Below are positions 8,913-28,882 of a DNA stretch of 64,000 nucleotides, one piece after another. The notes below the pieces were generated by a model that saw nothing but the letters and a program-made list of their open reading frames with translations, ran no database searches and had not been told where the DNA came from. The position numbers and the translations under genes are program-made. The stretch spans positions 6,530,501 to 6,594,500 of the forward strand of contig OZ004586.1 in NCBI GenBank assembly GCA_963924555.1, written 5' to 3'. The stretch's first letter is position 1, and every line of letters begins with the position of its first letter. This stretch comes from Crambe crambe (Eukaryota; Porifera; Demospongiae; Poecilosclerida; Crambeidae).

Positions 8913-11900
8913 ATGGTGCTATCTGTATTATTCAGTAAGTAAATCAGTTTGTGTGGAATTTGAATGTGGTTTTAAAAAGCAAGAGTCAGAGAAAAGGGTT
9001 ATGGAGAGAGTGTTATTAATAGCAAGATTGATGATACCTTGGACTGCAAAAGATTTAATGGCAAACTGACTGATTATGATGAGTGTATGCAAACTGCATA
9101 GCTAATATCTTCAGTGCATTGCAAGAGGCCATGAATTACATTGCAGAGCTATCTTTTTTTATTTTTTCTTTCTCTCTGTTCTTGTAGAGTTTGATGCCAC
9201 AGCTTTGACCTACGTGGGACACTATGCAGGTCCTTGTCTGATCCAACTCAACGGCCAAGCCATCGTCATATGCCGTGAAAATGGACTTGAAATCAACAAA
9301 TGGCCGTATAATTGCATCAGGCAGTTCCGAGCTGAGGATGAGACTGGGAAATTCAGTTTCGTATCCGGTCGACGGGGACCATGGGGAGTGGCCGAGTACA
9401 ATTTCGGTCTTAGCAACAGCTCACTCGTGTCTTTGCAATCGGCTCTGACAGAGTTCACCGGCGCTCAGTTCAGTGCCGTGGCTCCAGGATCCGGAACAGA
9501 ACAGCAACCGCTTCAGATGCAACAGCCACTCCCTCCATACCCACCAACCATGCCACGTCATGCGAGTGTTGGCTCAGTGCATGCATATAGCACATCCTCC
9601 TCCACCCCACAGCCAATGATAGGTGGGGGTAGCAATCGAGTCAACTCCACCTCCTCATCAGATGTGTTTCCGTCAAGTCGTCCTCAAAATGTCCCTAAGC
9701 TACCCCCCAGGGACTACATCATGACAAACTCCCCTCACGATCAGGTTAACCTCTCCAACAGCACCGATGATTTCTCACGGAGGAACAACTACAGGACCCG
9801 TGCGGCCACTTCGGGGTCTTTATCAAGTAGCACGTCACCCGAAGCTAATAGGCCTTTCCTGCCCCCACCTTATCCCGGCTCAAAGGAGTCCTCTCCCGAG
9901 ACGTGGGTGGCCAAGGGGACTAATTACGAGGAGGCCCAGATTACTAACCTAAAGGCCAACGTTCAGACTCCAGTAAAGCAAAAGAAGAAGTCCTTCTTCG
10001 ATCGTTTTCGAGGATCTAACAGTGGAAGTACAGGGGGAGATGACGAGAGCGAATCTAAGCAGTAAGTCTAATGTCTTCTTTTTGTGTTATGAAAAGTTAG
10101 ATTTTTTAGTATGGGAGCCTCCATATCTGTGTATTCTGTTTTGAAGAAATGGAAAGAAAAAAAACCCTTTTCCCCGTAATTATTGGAATGTATAATATCT
10201 TTATGATACAAAGAAGTGGCCATTTTAGGGAAAGGGATTGCTATGACCTCTATTATCTCGCCTGGTTTTATCATATCTTTTGTCTTGTGAAAAGTGACCA
10301 TTTTAGGGGAAAAAATTAGAGCTGCATCTAAAGTCTTAAGGGTCACCTTTCCCCCTCTTACTGGTGCATGACTTAATCATGATGGCATGGTTATGTTGCT
10401 ATTATAGTTGACCACCTAAAGGTTTGCAACACTATTATGTTTATGTTACTAGTGATCCTTTACCTATTACATTTCATAGCGTTTATAACCCAAACGACCC
10501 TTTACCTATCATTTTCTTGCATTCAGTACCAAAAAGCAGCGAAAGAACTCGGCTGAAGATGAGTCGTCATTGGACAGCCCTATTGTTACAAGACAACAAA
10601 CTCTGAGATCTGAAAAGAAGTCACAAGATAAGTTGCACGATTCCTCACCTAAGAGACTCTCTGGAGAAGAATCTAAAATTCACAATGGGAGCAAGAAGGA
10701 ATCTCCTTACGATCATCTGCCTTCAGAGAAAGATCAGGAGCTTGCACAGGTGAACAACACTGATGCAAATGAAGTCAGTCTTGGACACGATTCCCCCGAC
10801 TCACCTGGCGGAAAACAATCTCCATATTTGGAAGAAGTGATCGAACCTCGTCCCCGAAGTTCCCCCACCATAACCGGAAAGAGCAGCAGACCCATCACAC
10901 CCGAGCATGCACAGGGAGGACGTGTCTCTAAGATCCTGCGGGGTCGCGTGTCCCCACCCACCAAACAAATCAAGAAATATAACACAATGACCTCATTCTC
11001 TGCTCATCATGCACAGATCGACCAAGCATCTGATTTATATAATGTTCCCCGTCCTGTTGAAAGCGATCACACCTCACTATACAATGTACCAAGACAAGCA
11101 ACAGCTACAGATCTATACAATGTCCCTAAATCTGTAATGGAGTCTCCTCCAGAATGCAACAGAATCGGAGAGGCTGATAATATGTATGCTACCCCCCGTC
11201 CTGTGAACCAGTCGAATCTGGACAGTGTGAATGGCGTGAGGTACTCACCTCAAAGTGACGAACTATACAAAGTCCCAAGTTCAGTTGTAGCACAAAATGG
11301 AACTGGAATGGAACATGGTGTTGAGAACATGTATAATGTTCCACGACCATCACAGTCCTCGACACCAGGCAGTCCAACGGGTAAATCCAAATCAAATCCT
11401 ATGAGAAATGGTGATAGACCTCGACTTCGTCCTGCTAGAAGCCTTGAGTCTCTTAGCAAACTTCGTATCAACCCGCCTGCACAGGACGACCCTAAGATAT
11501 TCAGGGGTCACTTAAGTCCACCAGCCTCTGGCAGACCTAGCGGTGTCTATATTGACATTGACCTTCAAAAGGAACTTTCCCCAACATCAAGCGGTCATTT
11601 TAGTCCACCAGCCTCTGGAAGACCTGTAGGTGTCTACATTGACATTGACCTCCAGAAGGAACTTCCCCCGGCTAAAAATGCTCCTCTTCCTCCACTTCCG
11701 ACACCCGGTGGACCCGAGAGAGAAGTCGACAGCGTGTATGCTGAAATTTCAGAGGATGCAATCATCAAGAGCAGAATTGCAAGAAGCAGTAAATCATCAG
11801 ATGGAACAGTAAACCCAGCTTACTCTGTCACTAAAGAAGCACTTACTCAATCAAAGAGCTCTGAAATGCTAGCACTAGAAGGGATGGCTAAAGCTAAAGA

Positions 11901-13118
11901 GCTTGCAGAAGAGGAAGGATATGAACTTTTCATGCCCTCAAGGTATCCAGCAGCGATTCCTCTTTCTAGATGTGCCTCTGACACCCCTCCCCAGCAAACG
12001 ACTGCTAGTGCTCTCTTGGAAAAGTACAAAATTGACATTCACAATTCTTCACCTCGTCTCCGACCTCATTCTGTAAGTGACATTCTAAATGATGATGCTC
12101 CAAATCCTTCAATTTTGGGCTCTTCGATTCCAGTCGTAGAGGACACATCTGATGAGTATGTGATAGTCACCGGACCCGATCATCGACCAAAACCAAATCA
12201 CACCTCGCCTCAAACTGTTCACCAGAATGGATCCATTCCTTCAAGTGGTGTTGTAGAAGAGGATGCTTATGAAGTAATGAATACAGCTCGTGCCAATCTG
12301 ATACTGAACCAATCTCACTATGCAACACCTAATCCCAGTTTAAGAACAGCTTCTTTCAACAAACAAGTTCCAATGTCCACGGATTCCGTGCCACATCAAG
12401 ATGTTTCTCCCCCTTTACCTCCACGGCTGAACAGTGTTGAAGCGGAAGAGAGCATATCAGCTGGCATTGATCTGGATAACATGAGTCCAATGGATGCCCC
12501 CAAGTCATTGGGTTCATCTGTCCAGGAAAGGAGGTCTTTGAGCTTGAGTGTTTCCAGCGACCAGAGTGAAGAGGCTGAAGGAAAAGACACGAGTCTACAG
12601 GGACACGATAATTCACCCTCGGCAAAGCTGATGCTTGTCAAGACTTTTTCAGGAAGTCCGATGGACAGATCGAATTCCATTGAGTTGAGGTCAGTAGAGA
12701 GTGTTATACAATTGAATTGACACATCCTTTTGGTATAGAGTGTATAAAGATTATCATTCAGAGTGTCCTTTATTGGTTTAGTAGTGGGAAATGATACATG
12801 TTGTCAAAAAAAAAAAAAGAAAGTGGTAGTTCCTTGAAAATTTATTAACTTAGCTATGACTGACCATTGTTCTTCGTTATTTCTATTAGAAACCATACTC
12901 GTTCACTTGGAAACGTATTGGAAGAAAAAACTACCTCCTCTCCCCAGAACTCGTCGAACTCACCCCAGACTGCTAAACGACACAATTACATCAACTACAG
13001 TCCCAAGGAAGATGAAGAGATACCACCAAAGGAGAGAACCACACCCATAAAGAAACGCCCCCTCCCCCTGCCTCGCAGCTCTCTGCTAAGAGGAGAGAGT
13101 CTGACTACAGATTTATGA
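8913..13118 (+). CDS. DOK-like scaffold: IRS-type PTB domain plus multi-tyrosine tail (4 exons, 1095 aa)
   Basis: Predicted exons are 8913-8934, 9188-10061, 10527-12689 and 12890-13118. All have GT-AG borders, the phases are consistent (1, 2, 2), and the total is a multiple of three. Exon 1 (7 codons plus 1 base) is the least certain. Residues about 12-105 form an IRS/DOK-type PTB domain, with INKWPYNCIRQF and SGRRGPWGVAEY carrying the conserved arginines. The tail is Ser/Pro-rich. At about residues 468-572 there are six YxxP motifs (four YNVP, one YATP, one YKVP), like the substrate domain of p130Cas. Two 29-residue repeats around GVYIDIDLQKEL follow. Further on come an NPAY near 729 (PTB-ligand form), YEVM near 879 (YxxM, PI3K type), another YATP near 897, and a C-terminal NYINY (YxN, Grb2 type). 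Proline motifs include RPLPLPR. No PH domain is seen, unlike vertebrate DOKs. The likely role is a phosphotyrosine scaffold downstream of tyrosine kinases; partners are inferred from motifs only. Confidence 0.85.
11506..11679 (+). repeat. In-frame coding duplication, 29-residue unit, two copies
   Basis: Within the scaffold tail the segment starting at 11506 recurs at 11593 (87-nt period). Both copies encode SPPASGRP followed by GVYIDIDLQKEL. Synonymous differences between the copies (for example CTTCAA versus CTCCAG) with conserved protein suggest selection on the YIDI motif. Confidence 0.85.
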
Positions 13119-14278: not shown

Positions 14279-16103
14279 ATGACTGCTTTTGCACCATATG
14301 TCAGAGGATTTATAGCAGAATGCAATGCTGAATGGTATCATGGCTTGCTAACAAGAGTTAAGGCAGAGAAAGTGCTGGCAGCATTTGAGAACACTGACTG
14401 TTTTCTTATCAGAGAGTGTGAAGAATCCCTCTTCTTGTCCCTCAAAATCCGAAGACTGACTAGATATGACTTCCATCATGTTAAAATACTGTATGGACCT
14501 GGATCGCATGGTGGTTGGTATAAACTGGAAGGAAATGCCTCAGGGAGCATTTCAAATCGTTTTAGTTCCCTGAATGATCTGGTTAACTATCATTATAATC
14601 ATGGCATTGGCTATCGTGTTAAGATTATGCTTGGATCAGCCTGCAGGAGAGCATCACCATCGAGTGAGTTCATGCAGTTATGTCTAGCTACCTACATGCA
14701 TTAACAGCCTCAGGATAGCTATTTTAATTTCACTGGTCATCCAGCTTTAGCTACATTGTAGCTTAAGCTATCATCACTCTAATAGCTACAGTGATAATTT
14801 TTATAAATAGTAGAGTTTCCCTCTCCTGTTAATCCCGGCTTCTAGCTATTTTCCCTCCCTACCTTCTACCTTCTTCCCCTCCCATTCCTCATTCTCATTT
14901 CCTCTCCACACATGCACCTTCAGTGGAGTACTCTTGGCAGTATGCAGAAGGAGCTCTTGGAGATCTCAGAAACTATTACTGGTATTGCGGAAAGATAACG
15001 AAAGAGAAAGCAGAAGCAACTCTACGAAATGGTGGACAAAATGAGAGATTATTCCTGGTCTGGCATTCAGTTGATAACCTTGTCCTATCCACTTCAACTG
15101 TTGGACTTATAAAACACACCAGGATTAACTGCAGTCCTGAGGGATACAGCTTGGGCTCCAGTAATGTGAAGTTCAGGACAGTACTTGGAATGATAAGATC
15201 CCATCTAATTGGTGAGAAACTACTTTTCTTCTTATAAATCACACCCACTAATTTCCATAGACTAGCTGTTGGTTATATTTCACAGTGAGTATGGTATTAT
15301 ATCATAACTGAATATGCGCATTCAAGCAGGATAGTAATAATTCAGTAGCTAATCAGGATCAGAAAACAATCCCAACATTTACATCCACTACCTTTACACT
15401 ACCTTTACCTTAACATGCTTTACCTTAACATGCTTTACCTTAACATGATATACCTTAACATGCTTTACCTTAACATGCTTTACCTTAACATGCTTTACCT
15501 TTACACTACCTTTACCTTAACATGCTTTACCTTAACATGCTTTACCTTAACATGCTTACTTGTAATAAGGATATTACATAGCTAACCATGGATGCATTGA
15601 TTCAATCTGTAGGTTTTTACGTCAAAGCACTGACACCTGTTGGTAATTATACTGATGGTGCCTGTACGATACAACTCAAAGATCACGCCCTGGTCATTTC
15701 CCAAATGAGTGGAGCAGAGATCAACAAATGGCCGTATAACAGCATCAGACATTTTGTTATTTATGCTGAAACTGGAAAATTTGGATTCCAATCAGGTAGA
15801 CGAGGGCCATATGGAGTAGCAGAGTATACCTTTGACATTACTGAAAAGAGGTTAGCTGACTTGCTAAGTGCCTTGGATGGGTTCACAGGAACTCAACTCA
15901 CCAAGTCCGCTAGGCTTGAATTTACCTCCCCAAATGCAACAGAGTCAAGACTGGAGTGTTCTCAATTCCAGCCCTTTTCACCTCTGTCCTGTTCAAGCAC
16001 AAGTTTTGTCTATTCTTATACCAAGTCAAGACACCGTCTTCTAGCTGTACAAACGAGTCCACACTTCAACCCAATGGAGAGAATTGTGGAATCAGTTATA
16101 TAG
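14279..16103 (+). CDS. SH2 - degenerate SH2 - PTB adaptor, first copy (3 exons, 387 aa)
   Basis: Exons are 14279-14663, 14924-15211 and 15613-16103; both introns are phase 1, and the total is a multiple of three. Residues about 17-126 are an SH2 domain (WYHGLLT, then FLIRE with the phosphotyrosine-binding Arg at residue 45). Residues about 135-222 match an SH2 fold (YYWYCGKITKEKAEATL), but FLVR is replaced by FLVWH with Trp at residue 175. Residues about 229-322 are an IRS/DOK-type PTB domain (INKWPYNSIRHF, SGRRGPYGVAEY). The tail is short, Ser/Thr-rich and ends in ESVI. No kinase, SH3, PH or transmembrane segment is seen. It is probably a cytoplasmic phosphotyrosine-reading adaptor. The same three-domain order recurs at 25.2-28.9 kb. 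I know of no standard family with SH2-SH2-PTB order; tensin (SH2-PTB) and SHC (PTB-SH2) are the nearest analogies. Confidence 0.87.
15404..15556. repeat. Minisatellite, about 15-bp unit, in intron 2 of the first adaptor
   Basis: The unit TTACCTTAACATGCT is reiterated about nine times, interrupted by TTACACTACC variants. It ends about 55 bp before the acceptor of the PTB exon. Confidence 0.9.
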
Positions 16104-16985
16104 AAACTGTGGTAGACTAACATTATAAGTATTATTAGTATTGTTTATGTAATCATTATTATTGTAATTATGTAATATTACGTCATTACCGGTATTTTAC
16201 TCCAGACTAAAGTCATTGCTTGTGTCTTTTATGTCAGTTGTGGAGTTGTCTAATATGATATTACTATAACATTTACATATCGTGCGTGCAAGAGTTATTA
16301 CAGAAACTAATTGACACAGTGATCTTGATTTACCATGCTTTAACCAAACAATGTACATATTGAGTGTGTAGCATTCATTCCAATTGTATCAACAGTTAAC
16401 TATTTATGGCTTGTGTGAAATAGGAGGGGAGGGAGGGGGGGGGGGGGGGGGGGGGAATTTTATTCTCCAATTGATTTGGTCAGCATTTTGAAGTGTCCAT
16501 ATACCTAACCTAGTTTGAGTTTCCCCCTCAAGACTACATAGCTAAAGACATTGTCTAGCTATACTCAATTTTCTGCAGCAAGCTTGTGTCATTTTTTCTT
16601 ACATAGCTATTGTACAGATGTGGCATTTAATTTTCCTTTCTATTGATTCTAATGTATGGTTCTTTACTATACGTAGCTGCTGTTAATTATACATACGTAC
16701 ATACTTATCTAGGGTCTTTGCTACAATCCAAGATCATGTACTATAGACCTTGTACTGAATATGAATTCATTGTCATAGCTATATTGTCGATGAAGCAGAA
16801 AACATTAATGGGGCACATCCTCCATAGCTCTTATTATGGCATCTGTTTTGGTTATGGCAAATATCATGTGCAATATAATACATATAGCTACTGACTCTTG
16901 CTGTTTCATTTTATATTGGACTTATCATTGCTTGGATACATGGAATGAGTCAGCAATTCCTTTGAAATATGTCTCCTGCTGAGTT
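16104..16985. other. Intergenic, with a poly-G run
   Basis: No gene is seen. A GGGAGGG-then-G homopolymer lies at about 16422-16455. The rest is AT-rich with scattered TAGCTA words. Confidence 0.5.
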
Positions 16986-17351
16986 ATGACTGCCAAGCTT
17001 TTTGATTTCTACTATCCTCAAGGTGAGCCTAGAGCTCACTGGCATCATGGGAAACTAACCAAATCTGAGGCTGAAGAAGTTCTGAGATCTAGTGATGACA
17101 CCAACTGCTTCCTAATTAGAAAAGAACATGGGGAAGAACTCATTCTCTCTTTGCTCTACGAAGGACAAGTGTATCATATGAGCATAGAATATAACCCTGG
17201 CCAGGGCTTTTCATTGCAAGGAAGTAATGAAACTAACTTTTATACTCTCAGTGAACTTGTTATGAATTATTATACTTGTGGTATTGGTGAGAATCCAAGA
17301 ATGACTCTTGGAAATGCTTGCAAGAAAGTGAATTTAACATGGCAGCATTAG
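16986..17351 (+). CDS. Lone SH2 domain protein or orphan SH2 exon (121 aa)
   Basis: An open frame from ATG encodes a complete SH2 domain (HWHHGKLTKSEAEEVL, then FLIRK with the binding Arg intact) and stops 8 codons after the domain. It aligns end to end with the first SH2 exon of both neighbouring adaptors. No second SH2 or PTB exon follows before the repeat block at 17.7 kb. A possible donor after CAAGAAA (about 17327) would be phase 0, whereas its relatives use phase 1, so splicing into 25873 would break the frame. It may be a stand-alone SH2 protein of SH2D1A/SAP-like size, or the remnant of an adaptor cut by repeat insertion. Confidence 0.65.
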   Translation: MTAKLFDFYYPQGEPRAHWHHGKLTKSEAEEVLRSSDDTNCFLIRKEHGEELILSLLYEGQVYHMSIEYNPGQGFSLQGSNETNFYTLSELVMNYYTCGIGENPRMTLGNACKKVNLTWQH

Positions 17352-17703
17352 CTCTATAGCTAGCTATAGCTCTGCTACATACAGTACATAATTATAGCTA
17401 TCAGTATTACAGCACTGCAAATACCAATTAGCTAACATGTAATAGCTATGAAACTTTGTTGAATTTTTATATACTACACATCACACAACTGGTTACAGCC
17501 TTCCTGTTATGATATCTCATTCATAAAAACACATTGTCTTCAATCACTAGCAACTTCTCCTAGAACATGAACATTCAGAATTTATATAAAGCATTCCTGA
17601 CCTGTCATGCATGAGGAGCAAAGTCAGTACATGGTGTGGTTATTGAATTTAGGAGGGTTTGGTGATGGTAAGGGGTCAATTTCTTGTTCATAAAATTTTT
17701 TAC

Positions 17704-17955
17704 ACCCATCTCTAGATTATCAGAGAGTGCGGTAGCACTCTCTAAGTAGGGATGGCAGGTCAAAGTCCATAGGACAGTATAAACTAAAAACTCTTCTTTC
17801 TCTTCTACCCTTACTCTACAGGTTCTCAGAAGGCTACAGTGAATTATTATATCTACAAAGAAGAGAGGAGAATGTTCAAAAGCCAAAAATTCATTCGCCA
17901 ACATAAGAAAAAAACGAGTTCTAAAATTGACTTTTGGTTCTTTTTCTTTGTAATA
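17704..17955 (-). repeat. 230-bp repeat unit, reverse orientation
   Basis: This is a reverse copy of the unit arrayed at 22075-22900. It contains the terminal palindrome AGAGAGTGCGGTAGCACTCTCT and TAGGGATGGCAGGTCAAAG. The open frame across it (FLAFEHSPLFFVD and so on) recurs only because the repeat recurs, so I do not treat it as a gene. Confidence 0.85.
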
Positions 17956-17960
17956 ATAAT

Positions 17961-19688
17961 AAGTAAGTGCAAAAAATTTCTTCTAAATAAAAAGGTTAAA
18001 TAGGGATAGCTTAAAATCTAGCTGGGCTATATAATGTACTGGAGTCGTATGAAAACAATCCCTACATTTACATCCAATATACCTATAGCTAGCTATGGCA
18101 GTTGTAAAAGTAGGGATTGTTTTCATACGACTCCAGTACATTATATAGCCCAGCTAGATTTTAAGCTATCCCTATTTAACCTTTTTATTTAGAAGAAATT
18201 TTTTGCACTTACTTGTTTCTATCCTTTTTTCTTAGTGCTTGAAGTTTAATATAAGTTTGTGTATGTGGCAGTATTTACTGTCACTTCAACTGAGAGTATA
18301 TGCATGCAGTGATTATTAATTTGACATGAGTATCTTTTTCTTTTGTAGGTAGCAGTCTCTGGTTGAAGAATTTGTTTAGCTATTTAAGTTTTGTCTATTA
18401 TTTAATATAAAACTTTACAGCAACAGCAATGTAAACAGCAATGTAGCTAAATGACATGTGAGCTGACTACACTACAGCAAAGTACTGGCTATAATACTAC
18501 TATAAGATGAGCATCTGTACTGTAATTCAGCAAGGAGTGACTGGAACATCATCAGATAAGACGATTAAGCTAAGCTAAACTCAAGAAGCTTACGTGGCTC
18601 CGCCCATAAGCCCCGCCCCCTAACGACGTGCGCTTCAAAATGGCGTCGAAAGATTAGCTAGTGTTCCGAGTGCTCGAATAGTGAAGTAGAGCCTTAGTCA
18701 AAACTAATAGCAAAAGATCAGCCTCTAGGTGCCGCTCTAACAGATGGCCAAAGCAGAATTTTGATGACTATAGCCAGTAAGTCGGTACGTCGATCTTATT
18801 ATCCTTATTATTATTATTATTATTATTACAAGTGAGTGTAAAAAATTTCTTCTAAATAAAAAGGTTAAGTAGGGATAGCCTAAAATCTAGCTGGCTATAT
18901 AATGTACTGCAGCCTCGTATGAATACAATCCCTACATTTATATCCACTACCTATAGCTAGCTATAGCAGTTGTAAAAGTAGGGATTGTATTCATACGAGG
19001 CTGCAGTACATTATATAGCCAGCTAGATTTTAGGCTATCCCTACTTAACCTTTTTATTTAGAAGAAATTTTTTACACTCACTTGTTTCTATCCTTTTTTC
19101 TTAGTGCTTGAAGTTTAATATAAGTTTGTGTATGTGGCAGTATTTACTGTCACTTCAACTGAGAGTATATGCATGCAGTGATTATTAATTTGAAATGAGT
19201 ATCTTTTTCTTTTGTAGGTAGCAGTCTCTGGTTGAAGAATTTGTTTAGCTATTTAAGTTTTGTCTATTATTTAATATAAAACTTTACAGCAACAGCAATG
19301 TAAACAGCAATGTAGCTAAATGACATGTGAGCTGACTACACTACAGCCAAGTACTGGCTATAATACTACTATAAGATGAGCATCTGTACTGTAATTCAGC
19401 AAGGAGTGACTGGAACATCATCAGATAAGACGATTAAGCTAAGCTAAACTTAAGAAGCTTACGTGGCTCCGCCCATAAGCCCCGCCCCCTAACGACGTGC
19501 GCTTCAAAATGGCGTCGAAAGATTAGCTAGTGTTCCGAGTCCTCGAATAGTGAAGTAGAGCCTTAGTCAAAACTAATAGCAAAAGATCAGCCTCTAGGTG
19601 CCGCTCTAACAGATGGCCAAAGCAGAATTTTGATGACTATAGCCAGTAAGTCGGTACGTCGATCTTATTATCCTTATTATTATTATTA
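17961..19688. repeat. Tandem duplication, about 867-bp unit, two copies, each starting with a long hairpin
   Basis: Unit 1 starts at about 17961 and unit 2 at about 18828. Each opens with an inverted repeat (17961-18215 and 18828-19085; arms about 115 bp). Then come a shared AT-rich segment, a GC-rich segment (GGCTCCGCCCATAAGC, CCCGCCCCC) and a short ATGGCGTCG start. Both end in a TTA microsatellite. Diverged copies of the same unit continue at 20750-21410 and 21590-22075. The GC boxes suggest a captured promoter or first exon; this is inference. Confidence 0.85.
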
Positions 19689-19921
19689 TTATAAAGAAAA
19701 AGAACAAAAGTCAATTTTAGAACTCGCTTTTTTCTTATGTTAGCGAATGAATTTTTGGTTTTTGAACATTCTCCTCTCTTCTTTGTAGATGTAATAATTC
19801 ACTGTAGCCTTCTGAGAACCTATAGAGTAAGGGTAGAAGAGAAAGAAGAGTTTTAGTTCATACAGTCTTATGACCTTTGACCCGCCATCCCTACTTAGAG
19901 AGTGCTAACGCACTCTCGATT
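19688..19921 (+). repeat. 230-bp repeat unit, forward orientation
   Basis: It runs from ATAAAGAAAAAGAACAAAAG to the palindrome GAGAGTGCTAACGCACTCTC. It matches the unit at 22075-22900 with some substitutions. Confidence 0.85.
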
Positions 19922-19924
19922 ATT

Positions 19925-20367
19925 ACAAGTGAATGCAAAAAATTTCTTCGAAATAAAAATGTGAAGTAGGGATGCTATTATAACTGCAGCTTCATTATGA
20001 AAACCAAGTACTGCAGCATCGAAGCAGTATGGCCCAAAAATCTAGCTGGAATATGTATTATAACTGCATGCAAGAGAGTGAACTTAGTGAAGTGACCCTT
20101 ACCCCCATCATCAAGTACGAGATACTATTCCTACTTCACTCCCTTGGCCGAGGAGTGAAGTAGGAATAGTATCTTGTACTTGATGATGGGTAAGGGTCAC
20201 TTCACTAAGTTCACTCTCTTGCATGCAGTTATAATACATATTCCAGCTAGATTTTTGGGCCATACTGCTTCGATGCTGCAGTACTTGGTTTTCATAATGA
20301 AGCTGCAGTTATAATAGCATCCCTACTTCACATTTTTATTTCGAAGAAATTTTTTGCATTCACTTGT
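19925..20367. repeat. Long near-perfect inverted repeat (arms about 215 bp)
   Basis: The arm beginning ACAAGTGAATGCAAAAAATT is mirrored by AATTTTTTGCATTCACTTGT. The centre lies near 20145 (CTTGGCCGAGGAG). A lone right arm of the same element is at about 24600-24818. Transcription would give a hairpin of more than 200 bp. No coding frame is present. Confidence 0.9.
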
Positions 20368-20744
20368 TTGCATTCTTTTTCTTTGTGATTATGAAAATTG
20401 ATAGACACTAAAGGCTTCCTTGATTGAACTAAATTTATTTAATGATCAGTATTTCATTTTGTTCAGGGAGGAGAGTTTGAAGGATGATCATCTGCAGTGT
20501 AATGGAGTACTGAAAGGAGTGAACATTTTAAAAAGTGAACAGCATTAGCTAATTGTTACATATGTGATCACTGAAATAATTATTGAGATGGTACGTATGT
20601 CTTGCTTGAGGGAGGAGTATGGGGAGTTTATGCATTTGGTGTAGTGATCATAATAGTGGATGCCATCAAATGGCCACATCCTGTGCAGGTGTTATATGAG
20701 GAGAACTGCTATTAATTGCCCCACCCCTTTTATGAGGTAATATC

Positions 20745-21410
20745 GCGAAGATTTTTTTCATACGAGGCTGCAGCACATTATAGATAGCCCAGCTAGATTT
20801 TAGGCTATCCCTACTTAACCTTTTTATTTTTTACGCTCACTTGTTTCTATCCTTTTTCTTAGTGCTTGAAGTTGAATGAGGGAGGCTACAGTACAGTACT
20901 ATACAAAGCCAGCTGTACATAAACCTCTTTTGTAGGTACATACAGTGTCTCTGGTTGAAGAATTTGTTTAGCTATTTAAGTTTTGTTGATATAAAACTTT
21001 ACAGCAACAGCAATGTAAATGACATGTACACGGCATGGTGAAGTGAGCTGACTACACTACAGCCAAGTACTGGCTATAATGCTACTATAGGATGAGCATC
21101 TGTACTGTAATTCAGCAAGGAGTGACTGGAACATCATCAGATAATGAATGAAGACCTTGGCTATAGCTAAACTTAAGCTTACGTGGCTCCGCCCATAAGC
21201 CCCGCCCCCTTCAAAATGGCGTAGAAAGATTAGCAGCTGTGTTCCGAGTGCTATCGAATAGTGAAGTAGAGCCTTAGTCAAAACTAATAGCAAAAGATCA
21301 GCCTCTAGGTGCCGCTCTAACAGATGGCCAAAGCAGAATTTTGATGACTATAGCCAGTAAGTCGGTACGTCGATCTTATTATTATTATTATTATCCTTAT
21401 TATTATTATT
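20745..21410. repeat. Third, truncated copy of the 867-bp unit
   Basis: It starts with a half hairpin (CATACGAGGCTGCAG) and continues through CAGCAAGGAGTGACTGGAAC, the GGCTCCGCCC GC box and the TTA microsatellite. Several internal deletions distinguish it from the two copies at 17961-19688. Confidence 0.8.
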
Positions 21411-21672
21411 ACAAGTGAGTGCAAAAAATTTCTTCTAAATAAAAAGGTTAAGTAGGGATAGCTTAAAATCTAGCTGGGCTATAATAATGTACTGCAGCCT
21501 CGTATGAAAACAATCCCTACATTTACATCCACTACCTATAGCTAGCTATGACAGTTGTAAAAGTAGGGATTGTTTTCATACGAGGCTGCAGTACATTATT
21601 ATAGCCCAGCTAGATTTTAAGCTATCCCTACTTAACCTTTTTATTTAGAAGAAATTTTTTGCACTCACTTGT
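21411..21672. repeat. Long hairpin of the 867-bp family, third intact copy
   Basis: The arms run from ACAAGTGAGTGCAAAAAATT to its reverse complement ending CACTCACTTGT, with a loop around CTATAGCTAGCTATGACAG. It is nearly identical to the hairpins at 17961-18215 and 18828-19085. Confidence 0.88.
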
Positions 21673-22075
21673 TTCCATCCTTTTTTCTTATTGCTTGAAG
21701 TTGAATGTAAGTTTGTGTATGTAAAGAATTGAATGGCAGTAGTGATACTACTATAAGATGAGCATCTGTACTGTAATTCAGCAAGGAGTGACTAGAACAT
21801 CATCAGATAAGAATAAAATTAGCTACCTAAACTTGGAAGCTTACGTGGCTCCGCCCATAAGCCCCGCCCCCTACCGACGTGCGCTTCAAAATGGCGTCGA
21901 AAGATTGGCTAGTGTTCCGAGTGCTCGAATAGTGAAGTAGAGCCTTAGTCAAAACTAATAGCAAAAGACCAGCCTCTAGGTGCCGCTCTAACAGATGGCC
22001 AAAGCAGAATTTTGATGACTATAGCCAGTAAGCCGGTACGTCGATCTTATATTTATTATCCTTATTATTATTATT
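21673..22075 (+). repeat. Fourth, shortened copy of the 867-bp unit
   Basis: It retains CAGCAAGGAGTGACTAGAAC, the GC boxes and the ATGGCGTCGAAAGATT start. Here the codon after AAAGAT is TGG, not TAG, so the small frame runs 13 codons rather than 5. Its role is unknown. Confidence 0.75.
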
Positions 22076-22900
22076 ATAAAGAAAAAGAACAAAAGTCAAT
22101 TTTAGACATCGTTTTTTTCTTATGTTAGCGAATGAATTTTTGGTTTTGGAACATTCTCCTCTCTTCTTTGTAGATGTAATAATTCACTGTAGCCTTCTGA
22201 GAACCTGTAGAGTAAGGGTAGAAGAGAAAGAAGAGTTTTTAGTTTATACAGTCTTATGACCTTTGACCCGCTATCCCTACTTAGAGAGTGCTAGCGCACT
22301 CTCTGATAAAGAAAAAGAACGAAAAGTCAATTTTAGAACTCGTTTTTTTCTTATGTTGGCGAATGAATTTTTGGCTTTTGAACATTCTCCTCTCTTCTTT
22401 GTAGATATAATAATTCACTGTAGCCTTCTGAGAACCTGTAGAGTAAGGGTAGAAGAGAAAGAAGAGTTTTTAGTTTATACTGTCCTATGGACTTTGACCT
22501 GCCATCCCTACTTAGAGAGTGCTACCGCACTCTCTGATAAAGAAATTGAACAAAAGTCAATTTTAGACATCGTTTTTTTCTTATGTTAGCGAATGAATTT
22601 TCGGTTTTTGAACATTCTCCTCTCTTCTTGGTAGATGCAATAATTCACTATAGCCTTCTGAGAACCTGTAGAGTAAGGGTAGAAGAGAAAGAAGAGTTTT
22701 TAGTTTATACAGTCTTAGCCTTCTGAGAACCTGTAGAGTAAGGGTAGAAGAGAAAGAAGAGTTTTTAGTTTATACAGTCTTAGCCTTCTGAGAACCTGTA
22801 GAGTAAGGGTAGAAGAGAAAGAAGAGTTTTTAGTTTATACAGTCTTATGACCTTTGACCCGCCATCCCTACTTAGAGAGTGCTAGCGCACTCTCTGATAA
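22075..22900 (+). repeat. Tandem array of the 230-bp unit (three copies, with a triplicated subunit)
   Basis: Copies begin at about 22075, 22312 and 22548, each ending in the AGAGAGTGC-GCACTCTCT palindrome. In the third copy a roughly 65-bp piece (CCTTCTGAGAACCTGTAGAG onward) is repeated three times. The array gives long open frames by repetition, which I regard as non-genic. Confidence 0.88.
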
Positions 22901-22907
22901 TTACATT

Positions 22908-23009
22908 GATACCGTGAAATATCACGAGTCTGTTGGCTAGTATTCACATGAGTGCCGCAGGCACGAGTGAGAATACCAGCCAATCAGACGAGTGATATTT
23001 CACGGTATC
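22908..23009. repeat. Fold-back element
   Basis: GATACCGTGAAATATCAC at 22908 is mirrored by GTGATATTTCACGGTATC ending near 23009, with imperfect inner arms (TTGGCTAGTATTC and GAATACCAGCCAA). Confidence 0.85.
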
Positions 23010-23025
23010 TACGTAATAATCAATT

Positions 23026-23628
23026 TATTATGTAACTACTGAGCATGCGTGGTGCCTTCAGGCCGTTGGATTCGTTTTGTTTATCCGGTGAGTGAGCTTG
23101 ACTTGTTAAAGTTGTAATTGATTTCTACAGCGTTTCTGATTGTAGACACTAGGCTTATAAGTGTCTATTGTAAGCGCTAAGTGCTTTGTGGCTAGCATTA
23201 CAGCTTCCTCTGTATGCAGCTAGTCTCGTGGGCCAGACCCTTTACCAACCGCGCTGCCAGGCTGAACTGCCACTTTAATACTACAGCAGCTAGCTAAGGA
23301 GTTTAGGCACATCTAAAAGGTATAGCTGTACTTGCTTCACTTGCTGTCAAATGTTTTTACTACTTGTTGTCAAATGTTGCACATTGCCATAGTATAATTA
23401 GCTACTGGATTTTTTTTGCTAGGAGTTCAGCATAATTATTTTTTAAACTCTTGAAAAGGAAGTATAGTCTAGTTTTTCACTTTTATTATCATGGCTATAA
23501 AATAAATCATTATGCAAAGATTGCCTAGGGGGACGTAATATGACTACGCGATATGGTAAAATATCACCCTAGTTGTGATACTACTATTCTCTATGGGACA
23601 TGCTCAGTAACTACATAATAATAATAAA
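23026..23628. mobile_element. MITE-like element of about 600 bp with terminal inverted repeats
   Basis: The left end TTATTATGTAACTACTGAGC is matched in inverse by GCTCAGTAACTACATAATAA at about 23605-23624. The interior has no recognisable protein. A target-site duplication is not evident. Confidence 0.6.
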
Positions 23629-23651
23629 TAATAGTTAGACAACGAGACCTA

Positions 23652-23754
23652 GGGATCTAAGTTATTTAGAGACCCGAGGGCCCTGGGCTGTAGTGACCCG
23701 AGCGCAGCGAGGGCGCTACCAAGGGCCCGAGGGTCTCTAAATAACTTAGATCCC
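23652..23754. repeat. Fold-back element
   Basis: GGGATCTAAGTTATTTAGAG is mirrored by CTCTAAATAACTTAGATCCC. The loop is GC-rich (GACCCGAGCGCAGCGAGG). A diverged relative may lie at about 26385-26465. Confidence 0.85.
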
Positions 23755-24123
23755 GTTGGTCAAGTTACCTAACTTATTTAGAACATAGCAACATAGTTTT
23801 GGAACTTAGAAAGGCTTCAAATGAATCGCTAAAGTTTAGCTAGTCAGCCATGAAAGCTTCGTGCACCGAAAATCCAGCAGCTGAAAATCACCAGAACTAA
23901 GGTAGGCTTTCTAGCTTATACGCTTGAAAATATGAACTAACTAAGCTTTCTACGCTGCCTTCGGTACCTTGTTACTCTTTTCTAGGCTTTAGTTGGTACT
24001 CACTAGTGTCAGGAGGCGAGAAACTAGCTTTCACCATTTTTTGACAAGTCTTCTAACACACACCCACCAGGCGGGGTTGGTTGGTTACTATGGATTCATA
24101 ACAATATTTCTAATTGCTGCCCA

Positions 24124-24210
24124 CCACAGGGTACTAAGTGCCTAACCGTAGGTTTACTAAGTGCCCGGGGCACTTAGTAAACCGACTGTTAGGCACTTAG
24201 TATCCCTGTG
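24124..24210. repeat. Fold-back element
   Basis: CACAGGGTACTAAGTGCCTAA is mirrored by TTAGGCACTTAGTATCCCTGTG around a GCCCGGGGC centre, giving a nearly perfect 87-bp palindrome. Confidence 0.88.
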
Positions 24211-24272
24211 ATGCATTATGAGGTTTAGAAGATCTGATTTTGTATTGTGAATATACAGAGCTGTGTTCTAAT

Positions 24273-24597
24273 AATCAGAGAGTGCGGTAGCACTCTCTAA
24301 GTAGGGATGGTAGGTCAAAGTCCATAGGACAGTATAAACTAAAAACTCTTCTTTCTCTTCTACCCTTACTCTACAGGTTCTCAGAAGGCTACAGTGAATT
24401 ATTATATCTACAAAGAAGAGAGGAGAATGTTCAAAAGCCAAAAATTCATTCGCCAACATAAGAAAAAAACGAGTTCTAAAATTGACTTTTCGTTCTTTTT
24501 CTTTATCAGAGAGTGCGCTAGCACTCTCTAAGTAGGGATGGCGGGTCAAAGGTCATAAGACTGTATAAACTAAAAACTCTTCTTTCTCTTCTACCCT
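24273..24597 (-). repeat. 230-bp repeat units, reverse orientation (one full, one partial)
   Basis: A reverse copy at about 24273-24510 is followed by the start of a second, which breaks at CTACCCTTAG where the half hairpin at 24600 begins. Together with the reverse copy at 17704 it flanks the whole repeat block. Confidence 0.82.
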
Positions 24598-24599
24598 TA

Positions 24600-24818
24600 G
24601 GGCCAAGGGAGTGAAGTAGGAATAGTATCTCGTACTTGATGATGGGTAAGGGTCACTTCACTAAGTTCACTCTCTTGCATGCAGTTATAATACATATTCC
24701 AGCTAGATTTTTGGGCCATACTGCTTCGATGCTGCAGTACTTGATTTTCATAATGAAGCTGCAGTTATAATAGCATCCCTACTTCACATTTTTATTTCGA
24801 AGAAATTTTTTGCATTCA
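24600..24818. repeat. Half of the 443-bp inverted repeat
   Basis: It matches the right arm of 19925-20367 from GGGAGTGAAGTAGGAATAGT to TTTTTTGCATTCA, with no left arm beside it. It looks like a deletion or recombination product. Confidence 0.85.
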
Positions 24819-25218
24819 TATATTTAGCTATATAGCTAGCTAATCATTGGGTAGCTATAATGCTATATATAGCTACATGTACAGGGGAGGCTCAGCCACT
24901 CACTGGTTTGGGGGGGGGGGTGAGATTCGTGTACTGGGTCTACACTGATCTACATTGCAAATCAGCAATAATACAGTACTCCACTGTGGAAATGAGTACA
25001 TTATATTATCAGCAACACACTTTTCTTTTAGCTTATTGGATGTGTAGATTATAGTTACATCTGATTGTTTGTGATCTAGTTTTGATATTTTATGCACTCA
25101 ATTTCATTTCCCAAATGTCTGATCTACAGTCTTGTTATGAAAATATAGGCCTAATATTATAGCTATAAACACACATAATAGTGTCTATCTTAGCTAGGAA
25201 GTAGCTAGCTAGTGTCTA

Positions 25219-28200
25219 ATGGCCTCTGACAATGAGTCAAGTGAACCTACATGTAAGTATGCTGAAGTGTATTCCGATTGGCAGCATGAGGATTGGTACC
25301 ATGGAGAACTAACAAGAACAGAAGCAGAGAAAAGGCTTAAAAATGGTGATGAATGCTGTTTTCTCCTTCGAAAAAGTAAGGGGTCATTCATCCTATCCCT
25401 GAAGAATGAACGAAATATCTACCATGTTCTATTGGAGAGTTCTTGTGGGTATAGACTGCAGGGGCATGATGATGACAGCTTCAGTACTCTTAGAGAACTC
25501 GTAATGCATTATATCACTTATGGAATCAGTGATAATCCAAGGATCATTCTTGGAAATGTCTGCAGCAAGGGGAAGAAGACTCCAAGAAAAAGTGAGAGAT
25601 ACATGTGTGCAGCTCAAAAATCATAAGTTATAGAAAGCCAAAGTGTATAGCTGTAGCTATGAAGACTTGGCCAATATTAATATGGGATCTTCAGTTTGCG
25701 GATAAACAGCAGCTGCTGCAATTTAGCCATTGGCTGTACTATTATGCACAGTGGAATATACTGAATAGGCAATGTATGTATAATTTTAGGCCAAATAGCT
25801 AGCTAGCTAACTACAGTAGCTAGTATAAATCTTTAATTATCTTTATTATAACTTAAGCTAATCTTTCTGTAGGATACCCTCAGCATTCAGATAAACCATG
25901 CTCTGGATATTCTAGCATTCGAATGGAGATGAGAGAAGGAAGTGCAACAGATATCACAAAGTGCCACTGGTATGGTGGAAAACTAACCAAGAAGGAAGTA
26001 GAAGCCAGACTAGGAGCAGATGAATGCAGCACCTCCTTCTTAGTGTGGCAATCAGCACCTGATCAACTCACTCTATCCACTAAAACTCAACGACTCTTTT
26101 GCCACACTGGAATTATCAATAGCCCAGAGGGTTTTCACTTGGATACAAGTGAGATGACATTCAAAACACTCACAGATCTGATTGGATACTATGGTCTATC
26201 AGGTGAACCAAAGATATCAACTGGTACGTATGAAAAGTTTATTATTGTCCATATCATTATCAATTCATCAGTATACTACAGTTATATAGTACACGCCTAT
26301 TCCCAAAAAGCACCTTTACTGTGCCCAAGAGAGATACATACGTAATAGCTATAGCTAGTAATAATAATTTCAGGTACTTTAAAAAAACTCAAGGGTCCTG
26401 GGCTGTATTTTTAGTCCGAGTGCAGCAAGGCACGTACTAAGAGCGGCCTAAAGGTTTCCACCAATCAGATTAACTTGAGGAAACCCTAGCCCTCTAGCCC
26501 TAGTCACCCTAACCAAGCCCTAAGGGTGGTCAACCATTCTAGCTCCCCCCCTCCCTCCCCCCCCCCCAAGGGTCCAATCCAGCACTGCCATAGCAGCAAG
26601 CCCCCCTAGCCAAATGCTTGCTAAATTTTTCAATGACAGATATAATAACAGCTATTTACAAATGACAGAATACAGGCATAATAATTAACTTGTTTTTGGA
26701 TGACAGAATATCAACTTATTTTTGAATGCAAGGCTTAAATGACAATTTTTAGCTAATCAATAAGTTCACTGTATTTATAAACTAGCTCTTGCTATGTATA
26801 TACACTGTAGACAGAATATCAACTTATTTTTGAATGCAAGGCTTAAATGACAATTTTTAGCTAATCAATAAGTTCACTGTATTTATAAACTAGCTCTTGC
26901 TATGTATATACACTGTAGACAGAATATCAACTTATTTTTGAATGCAAGGCTTAAATGACAATTTTTAGCTAATCAATAAGTTCACTGTATTTATAAACTA
27001 GCTCTTGCTATGTATATACACTGTAGAAACGAAAGTGTACACTGCACACTTGCAGTGCGTGTATAAGGACAATTTAGTATACACTGCACATCTATAATGC
27101 TTCTGTATAATCATGGCTAAAACACCCACTTTTGACTGCTAAATCAATAAAATTAATTATGGCTTGTTGCTTCTTCTTGTAGCTGCTTCTCTTTCTACAA
27201 TAATTATATACTGCATGCACATACTTGGCTACATTATTAATGGGTCCCCTAAGCCAAATCATCTTCCTCTGCCAGTGTTCAGCATAGCATTGTTCGAACT
27301 AGGATTGTCATAATAATGGATCCTGCACTATGAAAAATAAGAGATTTCCCTTGCGTTTCCAATTAAGAGAAACTTGAAGGAAACACAGTGTAATTTTTGT
27401 AGGATACGCAAGGGCACAGCATATTTAGAATAGGAAACACAGAAATCCTTGCGTATCCTATTAATTTCTTTACCAAGTTTCCTACAGGTTTCATGCTAGG
27501 ATATCTCTTATTTTCATAGTGTTGCTCAGTAAACCAGTAGGGATGGCTAAGTTTTTGCACTTTGATAGTAGTCATCCCTAGATAGCTATGTATATAAAAG
27601 ATTTAATGCTTGCTTAAAATCGTTATTATCATAGATTTTTTATAACCCAGATTTTCAATACAAATATGCAGGCACTTCAGAATTTCTTGGTGAAGCATTG
27701 ACTTCCATTGGCAACTTCACTGGTTCATGTATGATCCAATTGAATGACAAGGCTATAACTATAAAATGTGACGGACAAGAAATCAATAAGTGGCTGTATA
27801 GCAGTATCAGACAGTTCCAAGTGAGAAACATAACTGGTGAATTCAGCTTTATCTCTGGCAGTCGAGGTCCCTATGGAGTTGCAGAATATGTCTTCTGTCT
27901 TTCTGGCAATTCTCTTGTGGATCTAAAACACACCTTAACTCAGCTGACTGGTGCCCAATTCAGTACTTCTACACGTAGTCACATTAAAATGGAACAGCAG
28001 GTAGACAGTTAGCTACCCAATGGATAGGAGTTATGGTTATTTCACTTATATATACTATAACTCTAACATTCAGGCATTTGGGTATTTTTCTTTCAATATC
28101 AATAATTGACCTTATCATAAGGGCCCTGGGGCATGCAGCATATACAAAATTTATTAGGCCTATATATAATATTGATTATGTCAATCTAATTCATACAGGG

Positions 28201-28882
28201 TCACAACATAGCACTGAGTGCACCATCTGGTTCTTTCTTGGATGATCAAAACCTCAACACTACTTCTGAAAAGACCACCATTATAGAGAATAAGCAAAGT
28301 TCTTTATCTGTTGCAAGCCTCCACAGAATTCCAAATTCAGACGAATCTTCTCTGAAAATGTTTAGGGTAGGAGAGAGTAGAGAGTCCCTTGACCTTTTAT
28401 CTACAACTCCAGAAGTCCTCAATGAGACTCTTCCAGACACATTTTCATCGCTAATTGACCCACAAACAGAACCTTTTGGTACACATTCATCTCCCACTTA
28501 TGAGGATATGACTGATTCACCCCTATCTGTAGCTGTATCCACACCTCTTCCACCTCCAATACCTCCAATACCTACATCCAGGAGACTAACTCAAATGGCA
28601 AGGAATATCGATAAGTTGCAACACGATTCAGTTGTGTGCAGTCCAAATGAAGCGTACTCCGTGATACCCAACTCATCTCCCATATGCATTCCACCAAGGA
28701 ATCCGGACACATTGCGGTCACAATGGCAGAAGACAAAAGACAAAGACCTAGGGTGCAGAATTGGCAAATTATCTGATTATTATGCTGCTGGCTCACTGAA
28801 TAACTTTGAACCTCGTCCCTTCATTCATGATACAAATTGTACAACTGCAAGTACGAGAGAATCAAAATGCTGTATCATCTGA
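25219..28882 (+). CDS. SH2 - degenerate SH2 - PTB adaptor with CaaX C-terminus, second copy (4 exons, 578 aa)
   Basis: Exons are 25219-25591, 25873-26223, 27672-28000 and 28199-28882 (phases 1, 1, 0; total divisible by three). The first SH2 (DWYHGELTRTEAEKRL) has FLLR with Arg at residue 51. The second (CHWYGGKLTKKEVEARL) has FLVWQ, with Trp at residue 183 in place of Arg, as in the first adaptor. A PTB domain spans about residues 250-345 (INKWLYSSIRQF); its SGSRGPYG replaces the SGRRGPYG of its relatives. The last exon encodes a tail absent from the first copy, with YEDM at residue 452 (YxxM form), LPPPIPPIP near 468 (SH3-ligand form), and YSVI and YYAA. The protein ends in CCII, a CaaX-type box resembling the C-termini of Ral GTPases. 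Membrane anchoring by prenylation is inferred. The gene converges with the receptor kinase at 30.2-35.4 kb. Confidence 0.88.
26703..27026. repeat. Tandem repeat, 108-bp unit, three near-identical copies, intronic
   Basis: The unit beginning ACAGAATATCAACTTATTTT repeats at 26703, 26811 and 26919. It lies in intron 2 of the CaaX adaptor. The near-identity implies recent amplification. Confidence 0.93.
27326..27521. mobile_element. MITE with CACTATGAAAA termini, copy 1
   Basis: The ends CACTATGAAAAATAAGAGAT and ATCTCTTATTTTCATAGTG are inverted repeats. A second family member is at 60060-60209. This copy has inner inverted segments (GATACGCAAGG / CCTTGCGTATC). It sits about 150 bp before the PTB exon of the CaaX adaptor. 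Confidence 0.8.

Follow-up and report, generated by a model that had tools for sequence, protein, structure and literature searches.

A pair of sponge genes with the domain order SH2-SH2-PTB and their possible origin from a tandem SH2 cassette and an FRS2/DOK-like docking gene

Introduction

Can the familiar domains of phosphotyrosine adaptors occur in an order for which no family has been named and, if so, how would such genes have come about? The question is raised by a 64-kb stretch of chromosome 6 of the demosponge Crambe crambe (G000:C9:6530501-6594500; contig C9 measures 8.84 Mb), hereafter the window, in which two predicted genes, A and B, each encode two SH2 domains (SH2-1 and SH2-2) followed by a PTB domain. 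The architecture of A and B is new and made from known parts, i.e., familiar domains in a new order, and it has so far been seen in one genome (143.14 Mb in 119 contigs). We consider it rather probable that A and B are real adaptor genes, formed when a cassette of two SH2 domains was joined in front of a duplicated docking gene of the FRS2/DOK-like kind. Around the origin of animals phosphotyrosine signalling became broader, and most of what is known of its adaptors comes from bilaterians. The sponge gene set, with one SH2 pair beside different partners and one SH2 domain deprived of its phosphate-gripping residue, offers a case in which exon phases record domain shuffling and the evolution of pseudo-domains, and in which small purified domains would allow a test.

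Gene structure and coding status

Gene A (window positions 14279-16103, forward strand) has three exons and a predicted product of 387 amino acids, and gene B (25219-28882, same strand) has four exons and a predicted product of 578 amino acids (Table 1). All five introns have GT..AG borders and each model is open through to one stop codon. Both genes have a phase-1 intron at each of the two domain joins, SH2-1 to SH2-2 and SH2-2 to PTB; the last intron of gene B is in phase 0. Identity between A and B amounts to 38-50%, and the proportions of synonymous (pS) and nonsynonymous (pN) differences are 0.78 and 0.37 for SH2-1, 0.598 and 0.377 for SH2-2, and 0.81 and 0.36 for the PTB domain, with synonymous sites saturated in SH2-1 and PTB. 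The excess of pS over pN indicates coding sequence under constraint, with SH2-1 and PTB as the clearest cases, and by their divergence A and B are old duplicates of each other. The possibility that they are chance frames or pseudogenes was rejected on account of the open frames, the matching phases and the nonsynonymous constraint. Exons, phases, domains, residue changes and kinship are established from the sequence.

The two SH2 domains

All four SH2 domains score above the curated Pfam cut-off (1.6e-8 and 4.7e-9 for the first and second of gene A, 9.1e-16 and 3.1e-9 for those of gene B). The betaB5 arginine of the FLVR motif is retained in SH2-1 of A and B, as it is in the related domains of two neighbouring genes described below, C (FLIRK) and E (YMVRE). 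In SH2-2 the same position is occupied by tryptophan in both genes, the codon being TGG in each. Mutation of the FLVR arginine lowers affinity about a thousandfold, and within the human SH2 set only RIN2, TYK2 (His) and SH2D5 (Trp) are listed as lacking it (PMC7530234). SH2-2 of both genes still carries the signature W-Y-x-G-K. Both also have a lysine at what we take to be alphaA2 and a histidine at what is presumably betaD4, and the residue at the presumed betaD6 is basic in A and glycine in B.

These retained residues favour an alternative in which SH2-2 reads phosphotyrosine in another way, through the basic residue at alphaA2 and, in gene A, at betaD6, so that the proteins would read at more than one site; the glycine at betaD6 of gene B speaks against it, as does the bulky tryptophan, which would occupy the floor of the pocket. 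PMC7530234 describes an SH2 domain of RasGAP with an unused FLVR arginine, a report which counts for the alternative; human SH2D5, with its tryptophan, is listed there, against the alternative, as unable to bind phosphotyrosine through this residue. We regard such an alternative mode of reading as quite unlikely, and SH2-2 is, from its residues, best seen as a pseudo-SH2 domain. A single-sequence structure model of SH2-2 was too poor (predicted local distance difference test, pLDDT, 39.9) and was set aside.

The PTB domain

In both genes the PTB exon matches the IRS-type PTB family of Pfam (PF02174) and no other family up to an expectation value (E) of 10; the match in gene A lies above the cut-off of 22 bits (3.2e-5, 24.3 bits). 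A profile of the PTB family matched FRS3 (1.9e-5), SNT-1/FRS2 (2.5e-5) and DOK1 (0.0034). An AlphaFold2 model of the gene B PTB domain built from five sequences (mean pLDDT 82.8) has seven strands and a C-terminal helix, and its best Foldseek matches in the PDB are SNT-1/FRS2 (1xr0; 3.6e-5) and DOK1 (7.5e-5), with TM-scores of about 0.6. When the same model was compared with VIA-align, FERM, PH-like and FACT domains ranked level with DOK1 and IRS-1, so that fold alone cannot separate the PTB classes. Judged by its sequence, the PTB domain of A and B is of the IRS/DOK/FRS2 class, and the sequence profile leans towards FRS2/3.

The IRS-1 PTB domain grips phosphotyrosine via Arg212 and Arg227 (PMC3507883). 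These two residues are 15 positions apart; in the alignment with FRS3 a pair so spaced is met at 'LRRY' and 'GRRC', and it is by this spacing, in our own reading, that the sponge positions were assigned. The first arginine is replaced by glutamine in B, in the neighbouring gene D and in two protein records, P0002 and P0003 (see below), by histidine in A and by lysine in E, and the second position is arginine in all six. A literature search for the corresponding arginine numbers of DOK1 was without result. As far as these residues can tell, the full standard equipment for phosphotyrosine is kept in one of the three domains, SH2-1.

A preliminary description of this DNA had reported the same SH2-SH2-PTB order in both genes, conserved phase-1 introns between the domains and a degenerate second SH2 domain, and in all of this it was right: four Pfam SH2 domains, IRS-type PTB domains and open models give the order, both joins are in phase 1 in A and in B, and the betaB5 tryptophan is common to the two genes. 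Its phrase 'three phosphotyrosine-reading domains' has to be given up in view of that tryptophan and of the missing first arginine of the PTB domain. Calling the PTB domain 'DOK-type' is sound at the level of the IRS/DOK/FRS2 class; within it, the profile favours FRS3 and SNT-1/FRS2 over DOK1.

Table 1. Features of the window on C9 (window positions; betaB5 is the FLVR arginine position)
Feature	Position	Strand	Description
Gene A exon 1	14279..14663	+	ATG start, then SH2-1 with betaB5 Arg (FLIRE); donor in phase 1
Gene A exon 2	14924..15211	+	SH2-2 (FLVWHS, betaB5 Arg to Trp), symmetric 1-1 exon
Gene A exon 3	15613..16103	+	IRS/FRS2-class PTB and short tail ending ESVI, without YxxP
Gene B exon 1	25219..25591	+	ATG start, then SH2-1 with betaB5 Arg (FLLRK); donor in phase 1
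Gene B exon 2	25873..26223	+	SH2-2 (FLVWQS, betaB5 Trp), symmetric 1-1 exon
Gene B exon 3	27672..28000	+	IRS/FRS2-class PTB (alone below Pfam cut-off)
Gene B exon 4	28199..28882	+	proline-rich tail, one YEDM (YxxM), C-terminal CCII (CaaX-like by eye)
Gene C	16986..17351	+	single SH2-1-like exon, 49% identical to SH2-1 of B
Gene D exon	9188..10061	+	PTB with phase-1 acceptor, then first part of the long tail
Gene D last exon	10527..12720	+	docking tail with YxxP (YNVP, YATP, YKVP)
Receptor kinase exons	50890-51210, 50527-50793, 50274-50516	-	kinase exons of the EGFR/ErbB-like gene; catalytic-loop exons by eye
Receptor membrane span	52660-53118	-	followed by juxtamembrane NPLF; Cys-rich exons too (by eye)

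Comparison with known adaptors

Among known adaptors the order is SH2-PTB in tensin, PTB-SH2 in SHC and SH2D5 and PH-PTB in DOK and IRS, and FRS2 has its PTB domain first. FRS2/FRS3 (SNT) are like A and B in their IRS-class PTB domain, which is the best match by sequence profile, and like gene D in having a PTB domain followed by a tyrosine-bearing docking tail. They are described as having an N-terminal myristoylation site and a PTB domain (PMC7260276). Unlike them, A starts with MT and B with MA, i.e., with no Met-Gly, two SH2 domains precede the PTB domain, and the YxxP tail of the gene D type is missing in both. DOK proteins share the fold and class of the PTB domain with A and B and have a YxxP-type tail, to which the tails of D and E are similar. 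Unlike in DOK, the A and B models run from the ATG into the SH2 domains with no PH domain before the PTB domain, and, unlike in DOK and IRS, not both but only one of the PTB phosphotyrosine arginines is kept in the sponge family. A DOK-like gene with a PH match and an IRS-type PTB match side by side was seen on contig C15.

Tensin has its SH2 domain N-terminal to the PTB domain, as have A and B, and gene E is likewise SH2-PTB; unlike tensin, A and B have two SH2 domains and are without a PTP/C2 part, and their PTB domain has no Pfam match outside the IRS family. SHC also combines PTB and SH2 domains in one adaptor, in the reverse order to A and B and with a PTB domain of the SHC class. SH2D5 too carries a PTB domain, placed before its one SH2 domain, whereas that of A and B is C-terminal to two. 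It is like SH2-2 of A and B in its tryptophan at the FLVR arginine (SH2D5 residue from PMC7530234). SHP2, RASA1, SYK/ZAP-70, PLCgamma and p85 have, like A and B, two SH2 domains in tandem, and the profile of the SH2 pair has SHP2 and RASA1 among its best matches of solved structure, SHP2 scoring on two domains; in contrast to SYK/ZAP-70 and SHP2, A and B are without a kinase or phosphatase domain, SH2-2 is without the FLVR arginine and a PTB domain follows.

Relatives were sought in a database of 5.8 billion protein sequences. The whole of gene B gave one distant match, a protein that has SH2 and RasGAP domains (scoring covered the 8000 candidates that shared most words with the query), the PTB domain of B gave only P0002 (112 candidates) and that of D only P0003 (140 candidates). 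P0002 (371 amino acids) is 60% identical to the B PTB domain and continues into a D-like tail; P0003 (1184 amino acids) is 77% identical to the D PTB domain and has a D-like tail in which ten YxxP motifs were counted vs. a shuffled mean of 3.74 (3 of 1000 shuffles as high). Pfam recognises the PTB domain alone in both, just under the cut-off in P0003. P0002 seems to read from an intron into the PTB domain and P0003 starts (MATTYVGN) inside it, so that the 5' ends of both are unsure. These searches, in a database whose count of sponge proteomes could not be told, brought up no protein of the order SH2-SH2-PTB, and no named family with this order was seen among the open-licence papers listed, which agrees with the preliminary description on this point. 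The 'undescribed signalling module' that it had proposed is new in its order and is not free-standing, as the PTB domain belongs to a local cluster of docking genes and the SH2 pair to a larger family of tandem SH2 domains.

The local cluster of PTB genes

When the genome was searched with the PTB domain of gene D, six candidates were scored. Four of them, D, B, A and E, scored strongly and lie inside a span of 96 kb; the other two are weak (E 0.0025) and lie elsewhere. Each of the four strong candidates has a phase-1 PTB acceptor. Separately, three IRS-type PTB matches were seen in one 1061-residue open frame at G000:C1:678354-679730.

Gene D consists of a PTB domain and a 929-residue tail with seven YxxP motifs vs. 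a shuffled mean of 2.83 (13 of 1000 shuffles as high). Its first coding exon was not found; between position 9106, where the frame of the PTB domain becomes open, and the acceptor there is no ATG. No SH2 exon was recognised in about 19 kb upstream by a profile search without filters, one SH2 match at E 0.9, about 15 kb upstream, not being accepted, and no PH domain match (PF00169) was present at E <=0.001 on C9 between 6.52 and 6.64 Mb. Gene E (C9:6635042, about 40 kb past the window) comprises SH2-1, a PTB domain and a tail with four YxxP motifs vs. a shuffled mean of 1.3 (26 of 1000 as high); no SH2-2 was found between its SH2 and PTB domains, and the join of the two is in phase 1 on both sides, the donor having been read by eye. 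Many near-identical repeats of the SESAVPQSV type were seen in its tail (L021:524-1963).

There are no YxxP motifs in A or B. In the tail of gene B one YxxM (YEDM) was counted, a number reached in 73 of 1000 shuffles, and five PxxP (reached in 42 of 1000); its last exon matches no Pfam family above the cut-off, and no second genomic copy of it was found below E 0.9, the next match being at E 0.94. Gene C is either a truncated copy or a single-SH2 gene: neither SH2-2 nor a PTB domain was recognised between it and gene B, and no phase-1 donor was seen by eye near the end of its exon. The interval between C and B (window 17716-24825) holds families of direct and inverted repeats of 150-330 bp, resembling miniature inverted-repeat transposable elements.

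The SH2 pair elsewhere in the genome

The SH2 pair (SH2a and SH2b in what follows, SH2-1 and SH2-2 in A and B) is not confined to this cluster. Relatives of SH2-2 occur on contigs C5, C12 and C6 (41 matches with the B query and 46 with the A query at E 0.1), and 17 of 35 SH2a-like matches have an SH2b-like one within 1.5 kb downstream, namely 15 on C5 together with A and B. It should be noted that this tally is rough: two SH2a on C5 share one SH2b, some copies contain stops, and some C12 and C5 pairs are mislabelled, the SH2a and SH2b scores being close.

In the C5 stretches that were read, SH2-SH2 pairs alternate with one-exon Kelch propellers (Pfam 6.1e-19 and 8e-26). Arrays of this kind were seen at the loci L023, L024, L028, L032 and L041 (C5:1.465-1.488 Mb, 1.655 Mb and 2.058 Mb; C6:2.935 Mb), and those of C5 and C6 are possibly SH2-SH2-Kelch genes. 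The frames fit in L032, where the SH2b donor and the Kelch acceptor are both in phase 0; in the main C5 array the visible SH2b donor is in phase 1 and the Kelch frame-start acceptor in phase 0, which means that an exon was missed or that the genes are separate. No description of this large expansion was seen among the open-licence papers listed. On C12 (1.76-1.84 Mb; L025, L026 and L040) SH2-SH2 pairs stand beside p85-like sequence, with a third SH2 domain in L026. The iSH2 match there (L025, 5.5e-4) is below the cut-off, and an nSH2-like start in L040 was read by eye and is not listed by Pfam; this suggests that the C12 loci are PI3K regulatory subunits with extra SH2 domains. Among the copies beside Kelch or p85-like sequence, phase-1 SH2a donors were present in four of four pairs and phase-1 SH2b acceptor candidates in five of five, in each case among other candidates. 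Three weak SH2-like matches (6.3e-4), spaced by 2058 bp in one 9513-residue open frame, were also seen at G000:C14:3697948-3702252.

The kinship of these domains was analysed in a tree of 25 SH2 domains, with six other SH2 domains of the genome and two of the protein record P0001 as outgroups; the long row E_a was left out, and L006, L027, L029 and L033 gave no row. The 17 cassette domains split from the eight others (100/98), all eight SH2b domains (A, B and six others) form one clade (99/99; 100% of bootstraps), and those of A and B are sisters (89/84). In a first tree, which included the badly cut rows L006_og and P1_b, SH2b formed one group in 22% of bootstraps; once P1_b had been recut and L006 and L008 dropped, support for the clade was 79/99 (81%) with E_a and 94/98 (95%) without it. 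In the alignment of the eight SH2b domains the betaB5 residue is tryptophan in two, A and B, which are those with a PTB domain, and arginine in six; further SH2b exons read with an intact motif also have arginine, and the L041 copy is without the motif. The arginine of the other SH2b domains, together with the shared clade, indicates that the SH2 pair probably predates its link to the PTB domain, and the loss of the SH2b arginine probably belongs to the PTB branch.

Origin of genes A and B

The explanation which we favour is that the SH2a-SH2b cassette, already used elsewhere in the genome, was shuffled in front of a duplicate of a D-type PTB gene. A docking gene made of a PTB domain and a YxxP tail would have come first and been duplicated; E would then have gained SH2a, and A and B SH2a-SH2b, the YxxP tail finally being lost from the latter two. 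A symmetric 1-1 SH2b exon and a phase-1 PTB acceptor make exon insertion possible without a break of frame, and D-like genes in other records, with no SH2-SH2-PTB gene there, make docking-gene-first the simplest order.

Several observations weigh against this explanation. The PTB exon of gene B scores under the Pfam cut-off on its own (0.0011, 19.4 bits). SH2-2 is constrained too, but it is the least so of the three domains, and slow decay would also fit. SH2a does not form one clade in the final tree, those of B and C standing beside SH2b with modest support. The docking-gene-first direction we infer from D and E, and the 5' end of D was not found. Finally, the splice joins of A and B are predictions read from the sequence, and the PTB frame of gene A extends 5' into the intron, with an in-frame ATG 25 bases before exon 3, which makes a PTB-only product possible.

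These last two points would also favour a reading in which tandem-SH2 genes and independent PTB genes lie head to tail and the by-eye reading of exons has created the joins, and the phase mismatch in the Kelch array of C5 adds that adjacent exons are not always plainly one gene. Against this stand the identical two phase-1 joins in the old duplicates A and B, a third SH2-to-PTB join in phase 1 on both sides in gene E, and the PTB frames of B (which opens at 27635) and D, both with no ATG ahead of the acceptor. The introns of gene A, moreover, measure 260 and 401 bp, the second lying between SH2-2 and PTB (1448 bp in B), and leave little room for another promoter. We hold separate sets of genes to be very unlikely.

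The remaining difficulty concerns the direction of change. When the 390 bp before the PTB domain of gene D were compared with five SH2 queries, 0, 40, 66, 82 and 230 of 400 control windows scored as high; the query exceeded by none was SH2-1 of gene A, and the resemblance lies within window positions 9040-9180. This may be the relic of a lost SH2 exon, which fits SH2 loss in D equally well and is a further point against the favoured order. The three-domain gene would then be ancestral, E having lost SH2-2, D both SH2 domains and C everything after SH2-1; a symmetric 1-1 exon is, after all, lost as easily as gained. Speaking against such losses, P0002 and P0003 are D-like PTB and YxxP proteins and no SH2-SH2-PTB protein was found, although both 5' sides are unsure, and the YxxP tails are common to D and E and absent in A and B. 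An ancestral three-domain gene seems to us unlikely, though it deserves serious consideration.

Returning to the cassette joined to a docking gene, we infer from the sequences, as for the order of events, what binding, membrane anchoring and competition might look like. The products of A and B would be cytoplasmic adaptor proteins in which SH2a recognises the phosphotyrosine of an activated receptor or kinase. The PTB domain would bind a turn motif in the juxtamembrane part of a receptor, and this binding probably depends weakly or not at all on phosphorylation, in the way that FRS2 is reported to be constitutively linked to FGFR (PMC7260276). As a pseudo-reader, SH2b may pack against SH2a, set the spacing or bind a non-phosphorylated ligand. 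In the product of gene B the CaaX-like end could act as a membrane anchor, with YEDM and the PxxP motifs recruiting PI3K and SH3 proteins, and the almost tail-less product of gene A could act as a competitor of those of B, D and E at shared receptors.

A broader proposal is more tentative, and we would call it possible rather than probable: a mobile phase-1 tandem-SH2 cassette may have been attached whole to three or more sorts of partner (FRS2-like PTB docking genes, Kelch propellers and PI3K-p85-like genes) in Crambe or more widely in sponges, building a private phosphotyrosine network independent of bilaterian adaptors, with SH2-2 of the PTB branch as a tryptophan-plugged pseudo-domain that has a new function and has been kept. 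FRS2 homologues are held to be confined to Bilateria in PMC7260276, which also names the sponge sequence XP_003383468.1 (Amphimedon). Gene D bears on this view, with its FRS2-leaning PTB domain and tyrosine-bearing docking tail in a sponge; a Met-Gly start is not among the features found in it.

Neighbouring genes

An EGFR/ErbB-like receptor tyrosine kinase gene lies on the minus strand at window 50274-60523, about 21 kb from gene B (Table 1). The best PDB matches of its kinase exon are EGFR and ErbB4 (4e-40 for one chain in two stretches, then 1.1e-19 and 7e-19). That its product meets the adaptors is speculation. A Destabilase/i-type lysozyme-like exon at window 61872-62198 scores 24.2 bits, under the Pfam cut-off of 26.2, and a long open frame of a hAT-type transposase (DUF4371, Dimer_Tnp_hAT) occupies window 43173-45536.

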